From positions 1 to 25,492 of the forward strand of contig JAKLKB010000099.1 of NCBI GenBank assembly GCA_023150835.1: a DNA stretch of 25,492 nucleotides. The letters are read 5' to 3'. The DNA is from Myxococcota bacterium. Its GTDB lineage: Bacteria > Myxococcota_C > UBA6777. This document shows, piece after piece, positions 3,758-23,300 of this stretch. The notes beneath the pieces are model-generated. The model was not told the DNA's origin. It ran no database searches and saw nothing but the letters and a program-made list of their open reading frames with translations. Numbering within the stretch: position 1 is the first letter of the stretch; every line of letters begins with the position of its first letter. The translations under genes and the position numbers were made by a program.

Positions 3758-5140
3758 TCAGTGATAGATGCCCAAGATCGTGGCGCGGTGTGCAGAGGAT
3801 AAGTCCGAAGGGAAACGACGCCAAGTAGCACTCCCCGAAGAGATCGAACTTTTTTCTTTGAGAAACCTTTCGTGAGATCGCAACGCCGAGTTGACGGAGG
3901 CATTTTTGGGCGGAGTCGTCAGCAAACCCGCGATCAACAAAGCGATCCCCGTCCCCCCCAAGATCGCCCCACCCACCAAAAACACCGGCCCACCCCAACC
4001 ATAGAAGCCCTTGAGACTGCGTTGTCCCATATCGTCGCGTGGTGGCATGATGATCGGGGCAGGAAGGGCGCGCTGCACTTCGCATTGGTATTTCATGTGT
4101 TTTTTGAGGTCTGTGCTTTGGGGTATCGCCTCGCAATTATAATCGAGGTAAGGATTTTTGGCGCTGAGATCATGGACAAAGATCCCGCCCATGATCGCGA
4201 ATCCTGCCCCAAGAGTCACAAGAGAGCCGCCCACGATGAAGAGGATACGGGCGTTGTTGGTGCGATCCAGCAATGCCTTGTGTTCTTTGGCGAAAGTTAG
4301 ATGCGATTCTTTGGCTTTGTTGGCAAAGAACAATTGCTCTTTACGTCGGGTGCTTTTCTGGATGGCGATGCGCTGCCGTTGTTCGCGCAGCGAGGCCAAC
4401 AGACTGCTTTGGTTTTGGTTGCGCTGCTGGAGGGCTTTTTTGTCGTTCCATTGGCTTTGGGCCAGACGCAGCGAAGCGATGTAGAACCAACCTTGGCGGG
4501 TGAACAGATCGATATCTTGTTCGATACGGAGGGAGGCTTGGAGTCGGATCTGCGCTTGGGTTCGATAAGTGAGAGCGATCTTGTTGTAGAGTTGGTTGTA
4601 GCGGCGAAGGGCATCAAGGGCTTTTTGTAGCTTGCCAAGCGACCCTTCAAACTCCGTAATGTATTGATTGATCGCATCGATCGATTCAAAGGATTCTAGA
4701 TCGCGGATCGGCGGGGGATTCGCTTCGATTTGGTAACGCTTGAACTGAAAGCGGTACAGCCAAAATTGGAATTGTTCGCGTTCTCCCTCGCTCAATTTCG
4801 CTTTTTCCGCAAGATAGGTCTTTTCCATCTTCTCAAGCGATTGTACAAACAATTGCATCTTGCCATCCGCGAGCGCTTCTTGTGTTTGTAGGAAGTGCTG
4901 CTGCAACGCGCTCGGAGGATTTGCGTTTGCAGTGAAAGCCATGAAAACAAACAGCCCGCAAACACTCCAACCCAACGTACGCAACATCTGAAACGCATGC
5001 AATATCCGCGATATCCGCAACGTGCGCAACGTCCGCGATACAGAGAACCCGCGATCCAGACGATTTGTTTGAGAAGCCTTGATCGAAGCAAAAAGAATTT
5101 GGGAAGCCTTGATCGAAGCAAAAAGAAATCGATTCCACAT
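3758..5140 (-). CDS. Membrane protein of unknown function, paralog of the adjacent gene (copy 2)
   Basis: I do not recognise this family. The product (460 residues from the ATG at 5140) closely resembles its upstream neighbour from LQQHFLQTQEAL onwards. It has a hydrophobic signal segment ending near TANA, a long charged helical region likely to form a coiled coil, and then two hydrophobic segments (FIVGGSLVTLGAGFAIMGG and VFLVGGAILGGTGIALLIAG). A loop with two cysteines (YNCEA and YQCEV) separates them. The start is uncertain. A TTG at 5218 lengthens it, and an ATG at 4987 gives a compact signal peptide (MLRTLGWSVCGLFVFMAF) but has no clear ribosome site. The N-terminal extension is itself repetitive (FASIKASQ twice), so true translation may begin downstream of it. 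It lies directly before the kinase and may work with it. Confidence 0.8.
   Translation of the reverse strand: MWNRFLFASIKASQILFASIKASQTNRLDRGFSVSRTLRTLRISRILHAFQMLRTLGWSVCGLFVFMAFTANANPPSALQQHFLQTQEALADGKMQLFVQSLEKMEKTYLAEKAKLSEGEREQFQFWLYRFQFKRYQIEANPPPIRDLESFESIDAINQYITEFEGSLGKLQKALDALRRYNQLYNKIALTYRTQAQIRLQASLRIEQDIDLFTRQGWFYIASLRLAQSQWNDKKALQQRNQNQSSLLASLREQRQRIAIQKSTRRKEQLFFANKAKESHLTFAKEHKALLDRTNNARILFIVGGSLVTLGAGFAIMGGIFVHDLSAKNPYLDYNCEAIPQSTDLKKHMKYQCEVQRALPAPIIMPPRDDMGQRSLKGFYGWGGPVFLVGGAILGGTGIALLIAGLLTTPPKNASVNSALRSHERFLKEKSSISSGSATWRRFPSDLSSAHRATILGIYH
5071..5130. repeat. 30-bp direct repeat, two copies
   Basis: Positions 5071-5100 and 5101-5130 are adjacent 30-bp copies that share the core GAAGCCTTGATCGAAGCAAA and differ only near the ends. 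On the minus strand they encode FASIKASQ twice in the N-terminal extension of the membrane-protein gene. The repeat lies upstream of the part conserved with the neighbouring paralog. Confidence 0.9.
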
Positions 5141-6532: not shown

Positions 6533-6843
6533 GATAACCCTGTTTTGATGCGATGGATTCTACAAAAACACTCTTCGCGATGCGCCCACAAAAGCGCAAG
6601 TGGTTGGTGGTTTGAAGGCAGACTACAGCAAACCACGCGCTTTGTCACTTGTTTGGTGAGAGCTGTCGCTTGCTGGCTGGATGGGTGGGGCTTTGCCCCA
6701 TGCCCTACAAGGGACTGATGGATGTTCGGAGCTTGATACACAAGGATATCTCTTGTTGTGGATTGCGGTTTTTTTTTAAGAAGCGTACACCCAAAGAATC
6801 CATCCAACAACGACAAAGCACCATAGATGAGAGAGGCATGGAA
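6533..6843. other. Divergent intergenic region with a GC hairpin
   Basis: This 311-bp gap separates the minus-strand membrane-protein cluster from the plus-strand lipoprotein gene and should hold promoters for both. I could not define a convincing -35/-10 pair. It contains a hairpin GTGGGGC-ttt-GCCCCAT (6685-6701) followed by GCCCTACAAGGG. This resembles the start of the dispersed repeat found at about 21000. A run of nine T residues precedes the lipoprotein leader. Confidence 0.5.
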
Positions 6844-8862
6844 ATGAGGCAACAAGTCGGAAAATGGAGCATTTTGTTTTTGGGCGTATTGTTTGGTTTT
6901 GTGGTGTCCTGTGGGGGAACGTCGAACTGCATCAACGGCATCCAGACGACGGATTACAACACCAGCGGCTTGCAATGCACCAAGTCTTGTGATTGCAGCA
7001 ACCTCAAATACGAAGGCTACTGCATCAACAGCACATGCGTTTCGACGGTGCGCAGTCCTGCCCAACGCAAGGGCGAGATCCGCTCTTGCAAGCTTTTGCA
7101 AAAAGTCGGTGCTTGTGAATGGGGCCAACAAGAAGCCCAGCCCGAGCCTTTGAAAGAACTGCTTTGGGGAAATTGTCTGCCGCCGACTATTGTCCCTGAA
7201 AACACAGCCGCTTTGTGTTCGGATGGCAAGGACAACGATTGTAACGGCACTGTCGACGATAAAGATCTCGGATGCAAAAGCTTTTGTGTTGAGGGCCGAA
7301 GTGAGCCTTGCTACCGTGGAGAAAAAGCCACTCTTAACCAAGGCAGTTGCCGCGCAGGTTTTCGAACCTGCCAACCGAATGGAGGTTGGGGAACTTGCGA
7401 GGGAGAAGTGGTTCCCAAAGCAGAAGTGTGCAACGCCCAAGATGACGACTGCAATGGGCTAATTGACGATGGTTTGGTGGGTTGTCACACCACGGAAAAA
7501 TGCCTTGAAGGCTCGCAAAAGCCTTGCTACACGGAACCGATGGGTTGCGTCTTGGAAACCCTGGCGGGTGGGGCAAAAGGCTTTCGGTGCGTGGGCGGTT
7601 GTCAGACGGGGACACAGCGTTGTGTGGGCGGATTATGGGGACTTTGCGAAGGAGCGGTCTCTCCAGCCGAAGAGCGTTGCGATGGCATCGACAACAACTG
7701 CGACGGAAAAGTTGATGAGATATGCGCTTGTCAAGCTGGCGAGCAACGCCTTTGTTTCTTGGGGCCACAAAACAAAGAAGTCGGCGTCTGCAAGGCAGGC
7801 ACACAACAATGCAAAGACGGTGTGTGGGGAGCGTGCGACGGGGCCGTCGCTCCAAGTCCTGAAACTTGCGATGGCCAAGACAACGATTGCGATGGCACGA
7901 TTGACGAAAGCTGCGGATGTACGGCGGGAACGTCGCGTGTGTGTTTTCTCGGTCCGCAACAGCGCGCTGTAGGAGAATGCACCGCAGGAAAACAGCATTG
8001 TGTCGCTGAAAAATGGGGTGTTTGTGATGGTGCAGGTAAGCCAAGTATCGAAGTATGCGATGGTTTAGACAATGATTGCGATGGAGTCGTTGATGAAGAC
8101 TGCGGATGCTCCACAGATGCCCAATGCCCGAACGGCATGCTTTGTTTTCGTGGTGTCTGCCAATCCCGTCCATTTGAAGAAACTGTCTCCGAGCCGATGC
8201 TGGAACCGACGCTCGACGCTGGCAACGAGCTGATGCTAGAACCGACGAGCGACGGCAGCAAAGAACCGACTCCTGAGCAAATCCCCGAAATCGCCCAAGA
8301 AGTCGTGCCAGAAACCATTGAAATCGTGAAAGAGATGGCTCCAGAAGCAATTCAAGAAGCGACACCCAGCCCCGGCCCGATGGCTTATGGCGAGAACTGC
8401 GCTCCCTCAAACGCAAACCAGCGTTGCCAAGCGGGTCTTATTTGCTTGACCTTTCCCAACGACACCATCGGCATCTGTTCGCGCCAATGCAACACCTCTT
8501 CTTGCCCCTCTGGTTCCCGCTGCGAAACCATCAACTCCACCACCGGCGACCGCGCTTGCTTTGTCAACTGCACCACAGTAGCTAACTGCCTTGCTGCTCA
8601 GCGTTGTGATTCTCGCATCAACGCTTGTTATCCAGATCCGAATCGGCGAGACTGTCGCCTTTCTGACCCTCTGGGTTCGTGTTCTTCGTATCGGGATTGT
8701 TGTGTTGGCCAGAATTGTTTGCTTGTGGGGGCTGGGCATTTTTGTGGGGCATGCTCAAAAGATTCAGACTGTCCAAAAATCGGGGGATTTGTTCCGACTT
8801 CTTGTTGTTCTCAAACGATCACAGGCCAAACGCAGCGCTTTTGCGCGACAACTTGCCCATGA
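6844..8862 (+). CDS. MopE-like lipoprotein with five CDGxDNDCDG metal-binding repeats
   Basis: The 672-residue product starts at the ATG at 6844. GAGAGG lies 8 nt upstream, while the ATG at 6838 is too close to it. The N-terminus is a lipoprotein signal with lipobox VVSC (C23), so it is predicted to be membrane-anchored. Five motifs of the type C-D-G-x-D-N-D-C-D-G-x-x-D-E begin at about residues 125, 196, 279, 342 and 405. This motif is known from MopE-type copper-binding proteins and from many myxobacterial surface proteins. The last three sit in units of about 63 residues, each with a WGxCDGA segment. A Pro/Glu-rich linker (about 440-520) leads to a Cys-rich C-terminal domain with closely spaced cysteine pairs. 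It probably binds calcium or copper at the cell surface; the ligand is inferred from family only. Confidence 0.88.
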   Translation: MRQQVGKWSILFLGVLFGFVVSCGGTSNCINGIQTTDYNTSGLQCTKSCDCSNLKYEGYCINSTCVSTVRSPAQRKGEIRSCKLLQKVGACEWGQQEAQPEPLKELLWGNCLPPTIVPENTAALCSDGKDNDCNGTVDDKDLGCKSFCVEGRSEPCYRGEKATLNQGSCRAGFRTCQPNGGWGTCEGEVVPKAEVCNAQDDDCNGLIDDGLVGCHTTEKCLEGSQKPCYTEPMGCVLETLAGGAKGFRCVGGCQTGTQRCVGGLWGLCEGAVSPAEERCDGIDNNCDGKVDEICACQAGEQRLCFLGPQNKEVGVCKAGTQQCKDGVWGACDGAVAPSPETCDGQDNDCDGTIDESCGCTAGTSRVCFLGPQQRAVGECTAGKQHCVAEKWGVCDGAGKPSIEVCDGLDNDCDGVVDEDCGCSTDAQCPNGMLCFRGVCQSRPFEETVSEPMLEPTLDAGNELMLEPTSDGSKEPTPEQIPEIAQEVVPETIEIVKEMAPEAIQEATPSPGPMAYGENCAPSNANQRCQAGLICLTFPNDTIGICSRQCNTSSCPSGSRCETINSTTGDRACFVNCTTVANCLAAQRCDSRINACYPDPNRRDCRLSDPLGSCSSYRDCCVGQNCLLVGAGHFCGACSKDSDCPKIGGFVPTSCCSQTITGQTQRFCATTCP

Positions 8863-9004: not shown

Positions 9005-9694
9005 TCAGAAGTCCGAGGTTTTCGTGGTGTTCAGTTGTTCGATGATACAAAGCCATTCGTGGAAGTGTTGGCAACGTTGGCGGAGCTTTGCCAAACCAAT
9101 ACGAGCGACAACCGAGACTCCAGAAGTGGCTTTGTCATACTCAGAGATCTCTTTGATGATGCGCTTGGATGGGGCCGTTTCACGCCCGTCGTTGATTAGT
9201 TCGGGATTTTGATCGCCGATGCTGCGTGCGAGATTTGCGATGGCATCGTCATGTTCGAGATACTCCCAATCCAGATATTCCGGTGCAGCCAAGAGCAGCG
9301 TTTCAAATTCGTGCAGTTGGATGTAAGGCACAAACCGTTGGTCGTTGAGGTCGAGGGCAAAAGCCTCTTCAAGTGTTTTCACACGCAGATAAGGAGGAAA
9401 CATCTTTGTTTCTTGGTATTTGGGAAAATCGTCAGGAAGCGCGTACAGATCGAACATGGTCGTAAATCGGCACTCGTCGGCTTGATCTTCTTTCATCCAC
9501 GCTTCGATATCTTTCTTCGCTTTTTGATAACTGATGAGTCCGCCACGATACGTTTTCGCGGCCCGTTTGTCTTTGCTTGTGAGCACACATCGAGCATCCG
9601 CATACACATCAAAGCCCGCCAGATAGGGAGCAAGCACGATATCAACAAACGCTTTTTCCGTTTGCCCTTCTACTGTAACGTGCAAACGGATCAT
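9005..9694 (-). CDS. DUF4276 family protein, TOPRIM-like, partner of the upstream ATPase
   Basis: The 229-residue product begins at the ATG at 9694, with GGAGGA five nt upstream. The N-terminal VEGQTEKAFV is the hallmark of DUF4276. The later FDLYALPDDFP and QLHEFETLLLA segments supply the conserved acidic residues. DUF4276 proteins are regarded as TOPRIM-like, so a nuclease role is plausible but not shown here. The start codon overlaps the stop of the ATPase gene (ATGA), so the two are translationally coupled. Split pairs of an ABC/AAA ATPase with a TOPRIM-like protein occur in anti-phage systems such as OLD-like and PARIS modules. This context makes a defence role reasonable, though no other defence gene lies nearby. 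Confidence 0.88.
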   Translation of the reverse strand: MIRLHVTVEGQTEKAFVDIVLAPYLAGFDVYADARCVLTSKDKRAAKTYRGGLISYQKAKKDIEAWMKEDQADECRFTTMFDLYALPDDFPKYQETKMFPPYLRVKTLEEAFALDLNDQRFVPYIQLHEFETLLLAAPEYLDWEYLEHDDAIANLARSIGDQNPELINDGRETAPSKRIIKEISEYDKATSGVSVVARIGLAKLRQRCQHFHEWLCIIEQLNTTKTSDF

Positions 9695-10803
9695 GGCTGT
9701 CCTCCAAGGACATTTTTCTCCCAAAGTTCGGAAAGGCTGTAATGTTGCAGCCATTCGTTCAGTTGGTTTGTGTCGAGCCTGCGAAACGTGCTGGTTCCTG
9801 AATGAGGATCTCGTTCGACGACGACGATGTCTTCCGATGAAAATTCATCGATCAATCGGGGGGATTGGGTGGCCGCGATGATCTGCGTGTGTTGCGATGC
9901 ACGTTTGATCAGACCGGCCAATTCAACGAGCGCTGCGGGATGCAAGCCTAATTCAGGTTCATCCAAGACGATCACTTTTGGGAAAAAGGCGGGTGGTTGT
10001 AGTAAGAGTGTGCTGAGCGCCATAAACCGCAACGAACCGTCCGATAACTGATCGGGTCCAAAGAGGTAATCAGGGCGAGCGCGATCCGTCCAATTCAAAC
10101 GAACGTACCGTTCATTCGTCGTTAGCGTATCCAGAACAAAATCATTGAGTTGGGGCATGATGCGTTGGATGTGGCTGACGATCCTTTTGTAGTATCGGTT
10201 GTAGGTGTCGCTTTCTTTGAGGACTTTTAAAAAAGCAGCCAGATTTCCTGCATCGCTGCGCAAAAAGGAAGCATCATCTACATAACAACGGCTCTTGATA
10301 CGCGCTGTATCCGAAGTATCGTGAAATTGAAACGTTTGAATACTTGCAAAAAAATCACGAAGCGCTTTGTTTTTTGGGTGCGTCTCTTGGCTTAAAGCGG
10401 CTTCTGAACTGCCCTCGCTCAACACCTCGGCTTGGGGGCTGGTGGTGCTAGGTTCAATGCGACGGACTGTTTCGGAACTTACAAACAAGCGCTCCAAGGC
10501 GGCGTAAGACAGACTTACACCGTAGTGGTCGGTGTGGGTTGCCTCTTCTACTGAAACGGAAAACTCCAGAGAGCCCGTCACTTTGGGTCCATAAAAAAGC
10601 AAGGTGTGAGCGCCTTGTTTGGCGGTATGTTGTTGTAAAGCACCGGTAGCAAGGGAAGCAAGAAGCCGAAAAAAAGAGACAATGTTGGTTTTTCCGCAGC
10701 CATTGGCTCCCAGCAAAAGAGTGATCTTGCCAAAAGAGATGTCCTGTCCGTTTTGGTTGTCGATGGATTTGAAACCCTTGAGGTGGATCTCTTTGAGTTG
10801 CAT
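9691..10803 (-). CDS. AAA/ABC-type ATPase (AAA_21/RecF-SMC-like), coupled to the DUF4276 protein
   Basis: The 370-residue product is a cytoplasmic ATPase of the OLD/RecF-like class. Walker A is GANGCGKT (residues 32-39), the signature-like segment is QLSDGSLRF, Walker B is VIVLDEPELGLHP, and the switch region is AATQSP. The start at 10803 is chosen because MQLKEIHLKGFKSI is the normal family beginning and AAGGAA lies upstream. A longer frame to 10923 adds only non-conserved residues. The gene ends in an ATGA overlap with the DUF4276 gene. The central region between Walker A and the signature is variable and probably holds the coiled-coil or recognition part. It most likely drives or gates its partner in a two-gene defence-like module. 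Confidence 0.9.
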   Translation of the reverse strand: MQLKEIHLKGFKSIDNQNGQDISFGKITLLLGANGCGKTNIVSFFRLLASLATGALQQHTAKQGAHTLLFYGPKVTGSLEFSVSVEEATHTDHYGVSLSYAALERLFVSSETVRRIEPSTTSPQAEVLSEGSSEAALSQETHPKNKALRDFFASIQTFQFHDTSDTARIKSRCYVDDASFLRSDAGNLAAFLKVLKESDTYNRYYKRIVSHIQRIMPQLNDFVLDTLTTNERYVRLNWTDRARPDYLFGPDQLSDGSLRFMALSTLLLQPPAFFPKVIVLDEPELGLHPAALVELAGLIKRASQHTQIIAATQSPRLIDEFSSEDIVVVERDPHSGTSTFRRLDTNQLNEWLQHYSLSELWEKNVLGGQP

Positions 10804-11096
10804 CGAATGTTTTTCCTTTGCGGCGCGGGTTTGGTGACGTTTTGTGGGGACAACTTGCCTATGAAGAGCATCGTCCATTTTTGCAGACTTGGTGGGACAG
10901 ACAGGGCCCGTTGCATCCGCCACAACGGATGTTGTTTTATTTGGTGATAGGAGCGATTTGTGGCCAAAAAAAGCCGTGTTCGCGACACTTCAAGCGACAG
11001 AGTCGTCGGGTTGAAAAACCTGTGATCTCTTCGTCTATACGGGGTCAAGGGAGCCGCGCTAAGGCAGTGGGGCGTGGGGTGAAACCCCCACAAACA
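10804..11096. other. Intergenic region with a dispersed repeat copy and a small hairpin
   Basis: This gap lies upstream of the ATPase gene and downstream of the DUF938 gene. It contains CATCCG/CGGATG arms (10914-10919 and 10926-10931) and a minus-oriented copy of a dispersed repeat (about 10990-11095) described separately. Near 10850 it has CAACTTGCC followed by TATGAAGAG, nearly identical to the 3' end of the lipoprotein gene near 8850. I see no gene in it. Confidence 0.5.
10990..11095 (-). repeat. Dispersed intergenic repeat family A, copy 1
   Basis: The 14-bp core CCCTTGACCCCGTA (minus strand, 11038-11051) is identical in copies at 21038-21051 and 24584-24597. Here it is preceded, on the minus strand, by GTGGGGGTTTCACCCCAC and followed by a weaker CGAAG...GTTTTTCA segment that also appears in copy 2. 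The boundaries are approximate. Confidence 0.7.
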
Positions 11097-15727: not shown

Positions 15728-17173
15728 ATGACTTCTTCGACAGAAACCATCCACGAATTAGCAAACCAAAAGTACAAGTACGGGTTTGTGACGGATATCG
15801 AAACTGACAGCGTTCCTGCCGGACTGAGCGAAGATATCATTCGTTTGATCTCCGCCAAAAAACAAGAACCCGAGTGGCTGTTGGAGTGGCGTTTGAAAGC
15901 CTACCGCCACTGGCGAACGATGGCCGAACCACGTTGGCCAAAGGTCGATTATCCAACGATCGACTTTGATCGGATCGTGTATTACTCCGCACCCAAACAA
16001 CGCCCAAAGCTCGATAGTTTGGACGAAGTCGATCCCGAGTTGTTGAAGACGTTTGAAAAGCTCGGTATCCCGCTTGAAGAGCAAAAGCGCCTGACAGGGG
16101 TCGCGGTCGATGTGGTGTTTGACAGCGTGTCGGTGGCGACTTCCTTCAAAGACAAGCTCGGTGAGTTGGGCGTGATCTTCTGTTCGATGTCCGAAGCTGT
16201 GCGCGAACATCCCGATCTTGTGCGCAAGTATCTCGGTACGGTGGTGCCTTACACCGACAATTTTTATGCTGCGCTGAACTCTGCGGTGTTTTCGGATGGC
16301 TCGTTTTGTTATATCCCCAAGGGCGTGCGTTGTCCGATGGAGCTTTCGACTTACTTTCGTATCAATGCCGCAGGGACGGGCCAGTTTGAACGAACTCTGT
16401 TGGTGGCCGAAGACAGCAGCTATGTGAGTTATCTCGAAGGATGTACCGCCCCACAGCGCGACGAAAACCAGCTTCATGCCGCAGTGGTCGAACTGATCGC
16501 GCTCGATAACGCGCAGATCAAATACTCGACCGTCCAAAACTGGTATCCGGGCGACGAACAAGGCAAAGGCGGTATCTACAACTTTGTCACCAAACGCGGT
16601 ATCTGCGCGGGTGTGAATTCCAAGATCTCATGGACACAAGTCGAAACAGGCTCGGCGATCACTTGGAAATATCCAAGCTGTATCCTCAAAGGCGACGGCT
16701 CTGTGGGCGAATTTTACTCCGTGGCTCTCACCAATCATTTTCAACAGGCCGATACTGGCACCAAGATGATCCACCTCGGCAAAAATACCAGCAGCACCAT
16801 CGTCTCCAAAGGTATCTCCGCAGGTAAGGGCCAAAACACGTATCGCGGTCTTGTGCGGATCGCCAAGTCCGCCACCCACGCCCGCAATTATACCCAGTGC
16901 GACTCGATGTTGATTGGTGATCGTTGTGGTGCGCACACCTTCCCGTATATCGAAGTCAATAACAATTCGTCGCAGGTCGAACACGAAGCCACCACCTCCA
17001 AGATCGGCGAAGAGCAGTTGTTTTATTGCCGTCAGCGCGGTCTTTCCGAAGAAGACGCGGTCTCGCTGATCGTCAACGGCTTTTGTAAAGAGGTGTTTCG
17101 CGAGCTTCCGATGGAGTTTGCGGTCGAAGCCCAAAAGCTCTTGGGGATTAGCCTCGAAGGCACCGTAGGTTGA
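15728..17173 (+). CDS. sufB: Fe-S cluster assembly protein SufB
   Basis: The 481-residue product is full-length SufB, the scaffold subunit of the SufBC2D complex that builds iron-sulfur clusters in the cytoplasm. Hallmarks include [31 protein letters not shown], and the C-terminal [21 protein letters not shown]391 in the last motif aligns with the conserved cysteine of E. coli SufB needed for cluster formation. AAGGGA lies upstream of the ATG at 15728. It is the first gene of the operon, 52 bp before sufC, and follows the promoter and operator described above. No insertion or repeat is present, in contrast to sufD. Confidence 0.98.
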
Positions 17174-17225: not shown

Positions 17226-17978
17226 ATGTTGAAGGTAAGCAATCTGCAAGCCCGTGTCGACGGCAAGATGATCTTGAATGGCCTTGATCTCGAAGTCAAA
17301 GCGGGCGAAGTCCACGCGATCATGGGCCCCAATGGATCGGGAAAAAGCACCTTTGCCAATGTCTTGGCAGGGCATGAAGCCTTTGAAGTGACGGGCGGAA
17401 CGGTCGAGTTTGAAGGCAAGAATCTCTTGGAGATGGAACCCGAGGAGCGCGCTTGGGCGGGCATCTTCTTGGCGTTTCAATATCCCGTCGAGATCCCGGG
17501 CGTTGGAAACACCTACTTTTTGCGGATGGCGCTGAATGCGATCCGCAAGGCGCGTGGTCAAGAAGAACTCGACTCGGTCGCCTTTATGAAGGTCTTGCGT
17601 GAAAAAGTCAAACTGTTGAAGTTGCGCGATGACTTGTTGAAACGCCCCCTCAATGAAGGCTTTTCAGGCGGCGAAAAGAAGCGCAACGAGATCCTTCAGA
17701 TGGCGTTGTTGGAACCCAAGCTGGCGATCCTCGACGAGACCGATTCGGGCTTGGATATCGACGCTCTCAAGATCGTGGCCGATGGCGTCAATGCCTTGCG
17801 CGATGGTACGCGCAGCGTGATCGTCGTCACGCATTACCAGCGCCTGCTTGATTACATCGTTCCTGATCATACGCACGTCCTCTACAAGGGCAAGATCGTT
17901 AAATCCGGCGGCAAAGAACTTGCGCTCGAACTCGAAGAAAAAGGCTACGGCTGGATCCAAGAAAGCCACGCCGCCTAA
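17226..17978 (+). CDS. sufC: Fe-S cluster assembly ATPase SufC
   Basis: The 250-residue product is an ABC-type ATPase of standard SufC length. Walker A is GPNGSGKST (34-42), the signature is FSGGEKKR, Walker B is LAILDETDSGLD, and the H-loop is VVTHYQRLL. SufC binds SufB and SufD and powers conformational change of the scaffold. It begins at 17226 with AAAGGAAC upstream, 52 bp after sufB, and precedes sufD by 97 bp. It is repeat-free and appears fully functional. Confidence 0.98.
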   Translation: MLKVSNLQARVDGKMILNGLDLEVKAGEVHAIMGPNGSGKSTFANVLAGHEAFEVTGGTVEFEGKNLLEMEPEERAWAGIFLAFQYPVEIPGVGNTYFLRMALNAIRKARGQEELDSVAFMKVLREKVKLLKLRDDLLKRPLNEGFSGGEKKRNEILQMALLEPKLAILDETDSGLDIDALKIVADGVNALRDGTRSVIVVTHYQRLLDYIVPDHTHVLYKGKIVKSGGKELALELEEKGYGWIQESHAA

Positions 17979-18074
17979 ATCCACATCCCTCCGCGTCAGC
18001 CCGATTCGATGTCAACCTCTTTCGCGTACAGCGTTTTTCGTTTGCGTACCACGCCACCACAAGGACAAAGAGCG

Positions 18075-19616
18075 ATGAGTCACGATCCGATACAACACTA
18101 CCAAGATCTCTGCCAGTCGCGTTCGCAACAAAAGCAACCTGCGTGGTTGCGTGCGATCCGTTTGTCCGCTGCTGCGCGACTTGCGGAGCTTGGCTTTCCA
18201 ACGCGCAAGCATGAAGAATGGAAGTACACGCCTGTACGCCCTCTGACTGCCGTTGCTTTTGCCCAATCGCCGCTGCCTCTTTCGCTTTCTCGTGTTGCCG
18301 CTGAGGATCTGCTGTCTCGCACAACACAAGGCGCTTTGCGGGTGGTGATCGGCGACGGTCAGATCCTCCCCGCTATTTCGTCTCTTGAAGCCCTCCCGGC
18401 GGGCGTCTCGATCCGCAGTCTTCGTGAGATCCTCGATACCGAAAACGAGCCAGACGATCTCTTGCGCCAGCGTTTTGCGCTTGCGCTCGATCGCGTCGGG
18501 GATAACGCCTTTGATGCGCTCAATCTTGCCCTCTTTTCCGATGGTGTGGTGATCGATATCCCCAAAAATACATCGGTCACACAACCGATCGAGATCGTGT
18601 ATGTCGGCTCCTGTTCTTCCACTCCGCAGATCGGCGCGATCCGCAGCTTCGTTTCGCTTGCACGCGGTAGCCAAGCCTCGATCATCGAGCGTTTTGTCGG
18701 CCTCTCCCCTGACGGCGCACACAACCCGCACACGACGGGCAGCGCATCCACCCCACACAACCCCCACACGACGGGCAGCGCATCCACCCCACACAACCCC
18801 CACACGACGGGCAGCGCACCCACCCCACACAACCCCCACACGACGGGCAGCGCACCCACCCCACACAACCCGCACACGACGGGCAGCGCACCTTACTTTA
18901 CAACCGCATCGACGGCCTTTTTCGTTGAAGAAAACGCCGCGCTCGATCATTACAAGATCCAACAAGACGACCCCTCGGCCTTTCACATCGCTTGGACGTG
19001 GCTGCATCAAAAGAGCCATAGCCGCGTAAGCACTTTTGCCGTCTCTTTGGGGGGCAAGATCGCACGCAATGAAACCGAGGCCGCGCTCGACGGCCAAGGC
19101 ATCGAAACCACCCTCAACGGTCTCTATCTGGTCGAAGGCGACCGCTTTGTCGACAACCGCACCTTTTTGGATCACGCCAAGCCCCACTGCCACAGCGTCG
19201 AAGTGTACAAAGGCATCCTCTCTGAACGCGGAAAAGGCACCTTCAACGGCAAGATCTTGGTGCGCCAAGATGCCCAAAAGACCGATGCCAAGCAATCCAA
19301 CCAAGCCTTGCTGTTGTCCGATGATGCCACGATCTACAGCAAGCCGCAGTTGGAGATCTTTGCGGATGATGTGAAGTGTACGCATGGAGCCACGACGGGC
19401 TATCTCGACGAAAAATCGATGTTTTATGCGCGCTCACGCGGCGTTCCCGAAGACGCTGCGCGTGGTCTGTTGACGTATGCCTTTGCAAACGCCTTGATCG
19501 AGGGCGTTCGATTGCCCGCCTTGCAACAAGAACTCAGCGCGTTGTTGGCGCAGCGCTTTCAATTGTCTGCGATGGACGATCTGATGGGCCTGCTCGACGA
19601 GCAGGAGCTTGGCTGA
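18075..19616 (+). CDS. sufD: Fe-S cluster assembly protein SufD with an internal histidine-containing tandem repeat
   Basis: The 513-residue product is SufD, partner of SufB in the SufBC2D scaffold, longer than the usual roughly 430 residues. The N-terminal segment has the typical RKHEEWKYT motif. The C-terminal beta-helix part, with [17 protein letters not shown] and [20 protein letters not shown], is intact. Residues 216-272 are a minisatellite of HNPHTTGSA(S/P)TP units inserted between SIIERFVGL and the FTTAST...[12 protein letters not shown] strand, on an expected surface loop. The ATG at 18075 has AAGGACA upstream; a longer frame to 18009 lacks support. Its stop overlaps the start of a 12-codon mini-ORF that precedes sufS. 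Confidence 0.95.
18720..18890. repeat. 36-bp tandem repeat (4.75 copies) inside sufD
   Basis: Four full 36-bp units start at 18720, 18756, 18792 and 18828, with a 27-bp partial unit from 18864. Each full unit encodes HNPHTTGSA then STP or PTP. All copies are in frame and nearly identical, differing by a few single bases (CCG/CCC, TCC/CCC). Near-identity suggests a recent expansion. Confidence 0.97.
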
Positions 19617-19654
19617 TGTCTGTTTACGCCGTTCATCCGAAGGAGTTTGTGTGA
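19616..19654 (+). CDS. 12-codon mini-ORF linking sufD and sufS
   Basis: An ATG at 19616-19618 overlaps the sufD stop (TGATG) and reads [12 protein letters not shown] to a TGA at 19652-19654, which in turn overlaps the sufS ATG (again TGATG). The peptide resembles the sufS N-terminus (MSVYAVH against MSLYTAH), so it looks like a partial duplication of the sufS start with a 38-bp period. It could relay ribosomes from sufD to sufS by termination-reinitiation, but it may be a non-functional remnant. Confidence 0.4.
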
Positions 19655-20928
19655 TGTCTCTCTACACCGCCCATGTATCGACCGCTCCTTCTTCCCGTAA
19701 TGAGGGCGGATTGGATATCCAACGCATCCGCCAAGACTTCCCCGCTCTCCACCAAAAGGTCAACGGAAAGCCGCTGGTGTACTTGGACAACGGAGCCTCC
19801 GCACAAAAGCCGCAAGCCGTCCTCGATACCTTGGTCCATTTTTACCAACACGACTACGCCAACATCCATCGCGGCGTACACTCGCTGAGTGAGCGGGCTA
19901 CTCGGGCTTATGAGGCCGCACGCGGCGTCGTTCAACGCTTCTTAAACGCCCGCGAAGAGCGCGAGATCATCTTTGTCCGAGGAACCACCGAGGCGATCAA
20001 TCTCGTGGCCGCGACGTATGGCCGCACAAACCTCTCTGCGGGCGATGAGATCGTGATCTCCGCGATGGAACATCACGCCAACATCGTCCCTTGGCAGATG
20101 CTTTGCGAACAACTCGGGGCCAAGCTTCGCGTGATCCCTATGGATGATCGCGGTGTCCTCGATATGCAGGCGTATCAGGATCTACTCAACCACCGCACCA
20201 AGCTCGTTGCCGTCGTCCATCTCTCCAACGCCCTCGGCACACTCAATCCCGTCGAAGAGATCATCACACTTGCCCATCAACACAATATCCCCGTATTACT
20301 CGACGGAGCCCAGTCCGCACCTCACCTCAAAGTCGACGTTCAAGCCCTTGATTGCGACTTCTTCGCCTTTTCGGGCCATAAGCTCTACGGACCCACAGGG
20401 ATCGGTGTCCTCTACGGAAAGGCCGCTCTGCTCGAACAGATGCCTCCCTACCAAGGCGGCGGTGACATGATCGAAGAAGTCACCTTTGAAAAGACCACCT
20501 ATGCCTCCATCCCAAGCCGTTTTGAAGCTGGAACCCCCCACATCGCAGGCGTGATCGGCCTCGCTTCCGCCATCCAATACGTCGAACAGATCGGCCTTCA
20601 GGCGATCCACGCCTACACCCAGACCTTGCTTGATTACGGCACGCAGCGCCTCCAAGAAGTCCCCGGCTTGCGCATCATCGGCACCGCCCCCCACAAAGCC
20701 AGCATCCTCGCCTTTCGCATCCAAGATATCCACCCCCACGACATCGGCACGATCTTGGATCAAGAAGGCGTCGCCATCCGCGCCGGCCACCATTGCGCTC
20801 AGCCCGTCATGCAGCATTATCAACTCCCCGCCACCGCTCGCGCTTCCTTGTCCTTCTACAATACCCGCGAAGAGATCGATATCTTGGTCGCTGCTTTGCA
20901 AAAAACGGTTCGCATCTTTTCTTTGTAG
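19654..20928 (+). CDS. sufS: Cysteine desulfurase SufS
   Basis: The 424-residue product is a group II (SufS-type) PLP-dependent cysteine desulfurase that takes sulfur from L-cysteine for cluster assembly. The PLP-binding lysine is K243 (FSGHKLYGP) and the catalytic cysteine is C381 in RAGHHCAQP. The PLP-contact motif [14 protein letters not shown] and LDGAQSAPH are intact. The start at 19654 has AAGGAG nine nt upstream and gives MSLYTAHVS; an upstream in-frame start at 19609 lies inside sufD. With SufU it forms the sulfur-transfer pair of the operon. A 469-bp repeat-rich gap separates it from sufU. Confidence 0.98.
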
Positions 20929-21291: not shown

Positions 21292-21397
21292 GAACAGGAC
21301 TGTTGCAACAAATCGTGACGGCATTGAAAAGCTGTGTTGATCTTGAGTCATCCGTTGTTTTTGTGGTGCGGATGGTTTGTTCCAAAGGAGCGCATGG

Positions 21398-22093
21398 ATG
21401 GTTGTGGATGCTGCCTCGATCTATCGGCAGATGGTGATCGATCACGGTCGATCTCCCCGTCACTTTGGCCCGTTGGCCTCTTGCTCTTGCCGATCGGCTG
21501 GACACAATCGCGTTTGTGGCGACAAACTCGACGTTTTTTTGCAAGCAGACACCGAACAGATCCAAGCCGCCAGCTTTCAAGGCGCAGGCTGCGCGATCAT
21601 GATGGCCTCCGCCTCCATGATGATGGAACGCCTGCAAGGTTGCTCTCGATCAGATGCCCTCCGTCTGCTTCATTGCTTTTTACAAATGATGTCTCTCCGC
21701 TCTGCCTCCACACCATCGCCAACAGCGGCCACACCGCCAACAGCGGCCACTTCGCCAACAGCGGCCACTTCGCCAACAGCGGCCACTTCGCCAACAGTGG
21801 CCACTTCGCCAACAGCGGCCACTTCGCCAACAGCGGCCACTTCGCCAACAGCGGCCACTTCGCCAACAGCGGCCACTTCGCCAACAGCGGCCACACCGCC
21901 AACAGCGGCCACTTCGCCAACAGCGGTGATCTCGCCGATAGCTTTGTCGGAGGATTGCGCCGATATCCTCGGACCCTTGACTCATTTTGCCGAAGTTCGC
22001 GGGTTTCCGACGCGGATCAAGTGTGCGACCCTTGCTTGGGAAGCCCTTGCTGCGGCTTTGCGACAAGATCCACAGACGGTCTCCACCGAATAG
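21398..22093 (+). CDS. sufU: SUF scaffold/sulfur-acceptor protein SufU with an internal PTAATS repeat
   Basis: The 231-residue product is a SufU (zinc-dependent sulfur-transfer partner of SufS), expanded from the usual roughly 150. Conserved features are IYRQMVIDHGRSPRHFG (8-24), C40-G-D42, C65 in FQGAGCAIMMASASMMM, and C209 in RIKCATLAWEAL. These are the zinc and active-site ligands, with Asp42 as in Bacillus SufU. Residues 108-177 are a low-complexity run of PTAATS units, in the region between the second and third conserved cysteines where SufU already differs from IscU. AAGGAG lies seven nt before the ATG at 21398. It follows the long repeat-rich gap and precedes sufT by 61 bp. Confidence 0.93.
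   Translation: MVVDAASIYRQMVIDHGRSPRHFGPLASCSCRSAGHNRVCGDKLDVFLQADTEQIQAASFQGAGCAIMMASASMMMERLQGCSRSDALRLLHCFLQMMSLRSASTPSPTAATPPTAATSPTAATSPTAATSPTVATSPTAATSPTAATSPTAATSPTAATSPTAATPPTAATSPTAVISPIALSEDCADILGPLTHFAEVRGFPTRIKCATLAWEALAAALRQDPQTVSTE
21719..21928. repeat. 18-bp tandem repeat (11 copies plus a partial) inside sufU
   Basis: Eleven 18-bp units run from 21719 to 21916 with a partial unit to 21928. The base unit is CCAACAGCGGCCACTTCG and encodes PTAATS; three variants occur (two PTAATP, one PTVATS). All three forward frames stay open through the array because the unit is a multiple of three. Confidence 0.97.
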
Positions 22094-22154
22094 CACCCCG
22101 TCTGTCTCAAACCTTTGCTTTTCATCCGTAGCACCTGCGCGAAGGAGTGCTTTG

Positions 22155-23300
22155 ATGCGTACCCCCGTACCCCCCAATCCTCATACACACAGTCACGACC
22201 ATGCCCACGAATGCGGCCATGATCATCATCACCACGAACATCACCACGAACATTACCACGAGCACGGCGAGGGTCACACGCATCCTCCCGAGCATCATAA
22301 CGAGCATAACACAGGTCATAACGAGCATAACACAGGTCATAACGAGCATAGCACAGGTCATAACGAGCATAGCACAGGTCATAACGAGCATAGGACAGGT
22401 CATAACGAGTATAGGACAGGTCATAACGAGTATAGGACAGGTCATAACGAGTATAGGACAGGTCATAACGAGTATAGCACAGGTCATAACGAGTATAGGA
22501 CAGGTCATAACGAGCATAGCACAGGTCATAACGAGTATAGGACAGGTCATAACGAGCATAGGACAGGTCATAACGAGCATAGCACAGGTCATAACGAGTA
22601 TAGTGCAGGTCATACGCACCATCACGAACACCACCACCCGCATGATGAGGGCCACGAACACCACCACGGGCATCACCACGAACACGGCCCTGACTGCCAT
22701 CACCACCACGAAGACGTCTATGATCCCGAAACAGGCGAGGTATTGGGGGGGTATCTTGACGACGAAGATCTTTCGGAGATGGATGGCTGCGAAACATCCG
22801 ATGCAGTCGAGACTTCTGGAGCGCATGACGCAACAACGTGTCACTTCTCTTCGCAGACAGGAGCGCGAGGCGGCGAGACTTCTTTGCAGGCAGAAGCGCG
22901 AGGCAGCGAGACCGATCCGCAGACAGCGCCCCCACGCACCGAAGGCGATGGGGATTCTTCTTCTTTGAGCGAAGACGAGAAAAGCGAGTTGGCTCTGGAT
23001 GATCTTCAAGAGCGTGTGATCGAATCTTTGCGTCGAGTCTATGATCCCGAAGTACCCGTCAATATCTATGACTTGGGCCTGATCTACAAACTTGAGATGG
23101 ATACGATGGGCCGTGTGGAAGTTCAGATGACGCTCACCACGCCCAATTGCCCTGTGGCCGAGTCGATGCCCGAACAAGTCCAAGCCGCGATCCTTGCGGT
23201 GGAAGGTGTCGAAACGGTACACGTCGATCTGGTGTGGGAGCCGCCTTGGTCGCCCGACATGATGGAAGAAGATATCCGCCTTGCGATGGGCTTTTTCTGA
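22155..23300 (+). CDS. sufT: SufT-like DUF59/MIP18 protein with a large histidine-rich repetitive N-terminus
   Basis: The 381-residue product ends in a DUF59/MIP18 domain (about 283-381) with DPEVPVNIYDLGLIYK and conserved C332 in TTPNCPVAESM. This is the SufT type of Fe-S maturation factor, usually about 100-180 residues. Before it lies an unusual extension. Residues 10-48 are His-rich (HTHSHDHAHECGHDHHHH and similar), residues 49-153 are fifteen NE(H/Y)xTGH units, residues 154-187 are a second His cluster (HHEHHHPHDEGHEHHH), and about 188-280 is an acidic, low-complexity linker. The extension would bind metal ions. The ATG at 22155 has AAGGAG seven nt upstream. It is the last suf gene, 61 bp after sufU. 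Identification of the C-terminal domain is firm; the role of the extension is inferred. Confidence 0.92.
   Translation: MRTPVPPNPHTHSHDHAHECGHDHHHHEHHHEHYHEHGEGHTHPPEHHNEHNTGHNEHNTGHNEHSTGHNEHSTGHNEHRTGHNEYRTGHNEYRTGHNEYRTGHNEYSTGHNEYRTGHNEHSTGHNEYRTGHNEHRTGHNEHSTGHNEYSAGHTHHHEHHHPHDEGHEHHHGHHHEHGPDCHHHHEDVYDPETGEVLGGYLDDEDLSEMDGCETSDAVETSGAHDATTCHFSSQTGARGGETSLQAEARGSETDPQTAPPRTEGDGDSSSLSEDEKSELALDDLQERVIESLRRVYDPEVPVNIYDLGLIYKLEMDTMGRVEVQMTLTTPNCPVAESMPEQVQAAILAVEGVETVHVDLVWEPPWSPDMMEEDIRLAMGFF
22299..22613. repeat. 21-bp tandem repeat (15 copies) inside sufT
   Basis: Fifteen units of 21 bp, encoding NE(H/Y)(N/S/R)(T/A)GH, run from 22299 to 22613. Variation is concentrated at codon 3 (CAT/TAT) and codon 4 (AAC/AGC/AGG), and the order of variants (three NEYRTGH in a row, later alternation) suggests repeated unequal exchange. 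The array lies between the two histidine clusters. Confidence 0.97.

Follow-up and report, generated by a model that had tools for sequence, protein, structure and literature searches.

SufT proteins carry a DUF59 domain with the diagnostic motif DPE-X26-31-T-X2/3-C, which includes a reactive Cys (PMC9045647). None of the nine SufT architectures in the literature is described as having a His-rich module, nor does a survey of 761 SufT homologs mention a His-rich extension (PMC4982691). The protein analyzed here resembles M. tuberculosis Rv1466 and S. aureus SufT in its DUF59 domain, its motif and the last position of its gene in a suf operon, but differs from them by an additional 187-residue His-rich tail and a 95-residue linker. 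With its dense His clusters and occasional Cys residues on a cofactor-assembly protein, this tail is reminiscent of the His-rich metallochaperone tails of HypB, SlyD and Hpn/Hpn-like, although the resemblance is in composition only; here the core is that of a putative Fe-S maturation factor and a long minisatellite lies inside the tail. As a rule, densely clustered His residues prefer Ni, Zn or Cu. The minisatellite itself is comparable to the intragenic VNTRs of bacteria such as Legionella pneumophila, which likewise consist of in-frame tandem units whose copy number varies between relatives (PMC2639597); in contrast to these, the arrays described here are unusually dense and are found also inside the core housekeeping genes sufD and sufU.

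The 381-aa open reading frame corresponds exactly to positions 22155-23300 of the analyzed window, a myxococcotal contig of 25,492 nucleotides (Table 1). Domain, motif and operon identify its product as a DUF59/SufT-type protein, in agreement with the preliminary description: PF01883 matches residues 286-357 (71.9 bits versus a gathering score of 23.5, E 5e-20), and a DPE-X29-T-X2-C motif that fits the SufT consensus begins at residue 297, its Cys being invariant across 19 sequences. Solved homologs of the domain are 1uwd, 2cu6, 5ird and 3lno. The NCBIfam equivalog model TIGR02945 (SUF_assoc) is matched over all of its 99 positions with 141.4 bits, which narrowly misses the cut-off of 143.4, and the protein is therefore not filed under this equivalog. 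Judged from family and operon, its role in the maturation of Fe-S proteins is putative. In the AlphaFold model the DUF59 domain is folded, while most of the extension shows pLDDT values below 50. His accounts for 65 of the 381 residues. The preliminary description had correctly placed a His-rich part upstream of the domain, namely residues 1-187, but had overlooked the acidic, Ser/Thr-containing linker of about 95 residues that separates the two; similarly, both the His clusters and the repeat array it had reported are present, but the array (23 His in 105 residues) accounts for no more than about one third of the His residues.

Table 1. Features of the suf locus and of the sufT-like gene (positions in the window)
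Feature	Position	Strand	Remarks
sufB	15728..17173	+	PF01458; 80% identical in same-family genomes
sufC	17226..17978	+	ABC_tran PF00005; 70-74% identical in relatives
sufD	18009..19616	+	split in frame by 36-bp x4.9 array, 18718-18892; about 2 units in congener
sufS	19609..20928	+	PF00266, E 1e-154
sufU	21377..22093	+	split in frame by 18-bp x11.7 array (TSPTAA), 21716-21926; array also in congener
Ribosome-binding site AAGGAG	22142..22147	+	good/strong, 7 nt 5' of ATG; read from sequence
sufT-like gene, His-rich N-terminal extension, 381 aa	22155..23300	+	ORF and domain match
N-terminal His flank, residues 1-47, 19 His	22155..22295	+	contains AHECGHDHHHHEHHHEH; 12-bp CATCACCACGAA x2.9
21-bp minisatellite, 15 units HNE(H/Y)xTG, residues 48-152	22296..22610	+	5 units in congener
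C-terminal His flank, residues 153-187, 20 His/35	22611..22715	+	ends with GPDCHHHHED
Acidic/Ser-Thr linker, residues 188-283	22716..23003	+	weakly constrained (dN/dS about 0.34); predicted disordered
DUF59/SufT domain, residues about 284-381	23004..23297	+	DPE-X29-T-X2-C motif; predicted folded

The gene order is sufB-sufC-sufD-sufS-sufU-sufT, with sufT as the last gene, followed by a Sua5/TsaC gene, and the suf genes adjoin one another in three other genomes of the same family (G002-G004) as well. The TSPTAA array of sufU is located between the conserved N-terminal and C-terminal halves of the protein and is kept in both genomes of the genus. No in-frame arrays were found in SufD and SufU of G002-G004. 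Elsewhere in the window, a 737-aa protein with repeats of a MopE-type putative Cu-binding motif (PF11617) is encoded at 6649-8862 (+), and an AAA_21 ATPase and DUF4276 pair at 9005-10923 (-) matches the PADLOC candidate defence system HEC-01 (HEC-01A 404 bits, HEC-01B 250 bits).

At the level of the phylum the comparison included five genomes, one of them congeneric (G001) and three others from the same family (G002-G004). The congener, labelled Myxococcota bacterium KLAP109 at NCBI, encodes the same protein with the same flanks and the same repeat unit, the latter in five copies (contig CAUJFU010000505.1). In G002-G004, sufT is located behind sufU as it is here and its product has an N-terminal extension of about 110-155 residues, which contains at most three His and no His clusters. 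Conservation of the His extension in close relatives, which had been proposed as a check, thus holds for the congener but not for the same-family genomes, whose extensions are not His-rich. When the His part alone was used as query, no further carrier was retrieved among the five family genomes, and in about 65 other SufT loci the extension held at most five His per 30-residue window, compared with 18 here, the highest His density in the sampled sequence of this genome (G000) and G001. Among 146 genomes of another phylum, 97 of which encode SufT, the His part went unmatched, matches to the full-length query starting at residue 155 at the earliest; a literature search combining SufT and histidine-rich returned nothing relevant. 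The earlier claim that such an extension is unusual for SufT is therefore well founded. As far as visible, the His tail is a genus-level trait, since only the congener carries it, and SufT does not depend on it to function, since the same-family genomes lack it. Dense His clusters kept in relatives, a hallmark of metallochaperone tails, are thus seen at the genus level only.

The array within the tail comprises 15 in-frame 21-bp units encoding H-N-E-(H/Y)-(N/S/R)-(T/A)-G, as had been noted before, and was delimited by TRF to 22295-22614 (period 21, 15.2 copies, 95% matches). With its score of 514, and with gene and array recurring in a second genome, it is not a chance match. It is tandem, its period is divisible by three and its copy number differs threefold between this genome and the congener, features of an intragenic minisatellite (VNTR). 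Unit numbers also differ in SufD (about five versus two) and SufU (about 12 versus about nine), all three arrays being longer here.

The sufT array is one instance of a genome-wide phenomenon. In a sample of 1.009 Mb of contigs from the 7.56-Mb genome we detected 292 arrays, that is 28.9 per 100 kb or 3.3% of bases, which extrapolates to about 2,200 arrays in the genome; by score, the sufT array ranks among the top 12 of the 292 and is thus long, though not unique. The period was divisible by three for 183 of 213 arrays (86%) in long open reading frames versus 8 of 27 (30%, chance level) outside (Fisher p 2e-9). The congener shows a comparable density (35.9 per 100 kb), the same-family genomes G003 and G004 roughly a third as many arrays (11-12.5), and unrelated loci 6.9, with no arrays of at least four copies among the latter. 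The window alone holds seven arrays, which besides those in sufD and sufU include arrays at 1-150, 5068-5127 and 22848-22926. Units of 9 bp of the CACGGAAAG/CTTTGCGTG type, readable as KHGKHG peptides, occur in several contigs (L070 9470-9907, L122 18668-19087).

We consider it fairly probable that the tail consists of two layers, constrained and likely metal-binding His/Cys flanks and a near-neutral minisatellite between them, both carried by a SufT-type Fe-S maturation factor. Three other explanations have to be weighed against this reading. An assembly artefact, which might have generated either the array or the fusion, would be in line with the finding that 8 of 57 short contigs start inside arrays, which is above expectation (p 0.0006); because of this, array copy numbers may be misassembled. 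However, the array is internal to its contig, the differences between its units are ordered, and the same gene, flanks and unit recur in an independent genome, for which reason we reject this explanation as extremely improbable. A further explanation, which takes up the metal reservoir of the preliminary description, is that the array itself is an adaptive reservoir, tunable by copy number. It is indeed in frame, the first His of the unit is kept in 15 of 15 units, and the units of the congener retain both His. In contrast, the second His is replaced by Tyr in 8 of 15 units here, so that each seven-residue unit contributes one or two His, and its variants comprise four replacement types (His/Tyr, Asn/Ser, Ser/Arg, Thr/Ala) and one silent type, a ratio of 4:1 that matches the neutral proportion of available sites per unit (17.2 replacement versus 3.8 silent) and thus gives no sign of purifying selection. 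Similar arrays free of His are present not only in sufD and sufU but in hundreds of further genes, and the sufT unit itself recurs with 93% identity at the end of another contig (C216, locus L113, 42732-42847), where the copies lie just 5' of an unrelated gene, which has its own ribosome-binding site, and share its frame; this recurrence suggests that repeat units spread between loci. By its sequence the array is thus not evidently maintained for its His. The suggestion that it forms part of a purpose-built metal store does not agree with an array that is one of an estimated 2,200, varies threefold and loses a His in 8 of its 15 units, and we regard a reservoir made up by the array as very unlikely.

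Rather unlikely, but of more weight, is the explanation that repeats expanded unchecked in a disordered N-terminus that tolerates them, and that the entire His region including the flanks arose as a by-product without any function. Arrays are present genome-wide, His-clustered repeats occur in some unrelated open frames (e.g. KHGKHG in L070), and the SufT tails of G002-G004 are low-complexity regions of other composition, one with a short duplication of its own. The flanks may share the mutational origin of the array, as they contain repeat-like codons (the 12-bp CATCACCACGAA repeat), and such near-repeat codons could be homogenised instead of selected. Against a mere by-product, 57 unambiguously anchored flank codons show six synonymous and four nonsynonymous changes relative to the congener (dN/dS 0.11, Fisher p 0.0015), a value below that of the adjacent linker (0.34), the DUF59 domain having 0.06; moreover, 26 of 27 anchored flank His and both flank Cys are kept, residues 1-26 are identical despite four synonymous changes, and the His density is unmatched in the sampled sequence. 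The flank His clusters therefore look constrained, although ten differences between two metagenome-assembled genomes lend support to this rather than prove it.

Under the two-layer reading, the SufT/DUF59 protein encoded last in the sufBCDSUT operon would bear a disordered tail in which the His/Cys-rich clusters around the array represent a genus-specific, selectively maintained layer. By analogy to metallochaperone tails, the most probable role of these clusters would be to bind transition metals (Ni, Zn, Cu or Co), and they might thereby buffer or screen metal around the Suf machinery and so affect Fe-S assembly. The second layer, the minisatellite in the His-coding stretch, would have grown by slippage or unequal recombination like thousands of others in the genome; its copy number and His content would be near neutral, and the removal of frame-breaking copies would keep it in frame. 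An iron reservoir, as considered in the preliminary description, is less likely, since nothing points to one and other metals are generally preferred by dense His clusters. In addition, M. tuberculosis SufT, which has no such tail, was found to bind neither Fe nor an Fe-S cluster (PMC9045647). It also seems improbable that minisatellite copy number tunes the metal capacity of the lineage through a His/Cys tail that buffers metal and is coupled to Fe-S maturation.

Should the flanks bind metal, Fe-S maturation and metal handling by an integral tail would be combined in one protein, which could provide a way into the biochemistry of SufT. In this genome, minisatellites at very high density are tolerated within essential bacterial genes without loss of the reading frame; its repeat density is a warning against assigning a function to any single repeat in it, and makes it a good system for studying how repeats enter conserved proteins.
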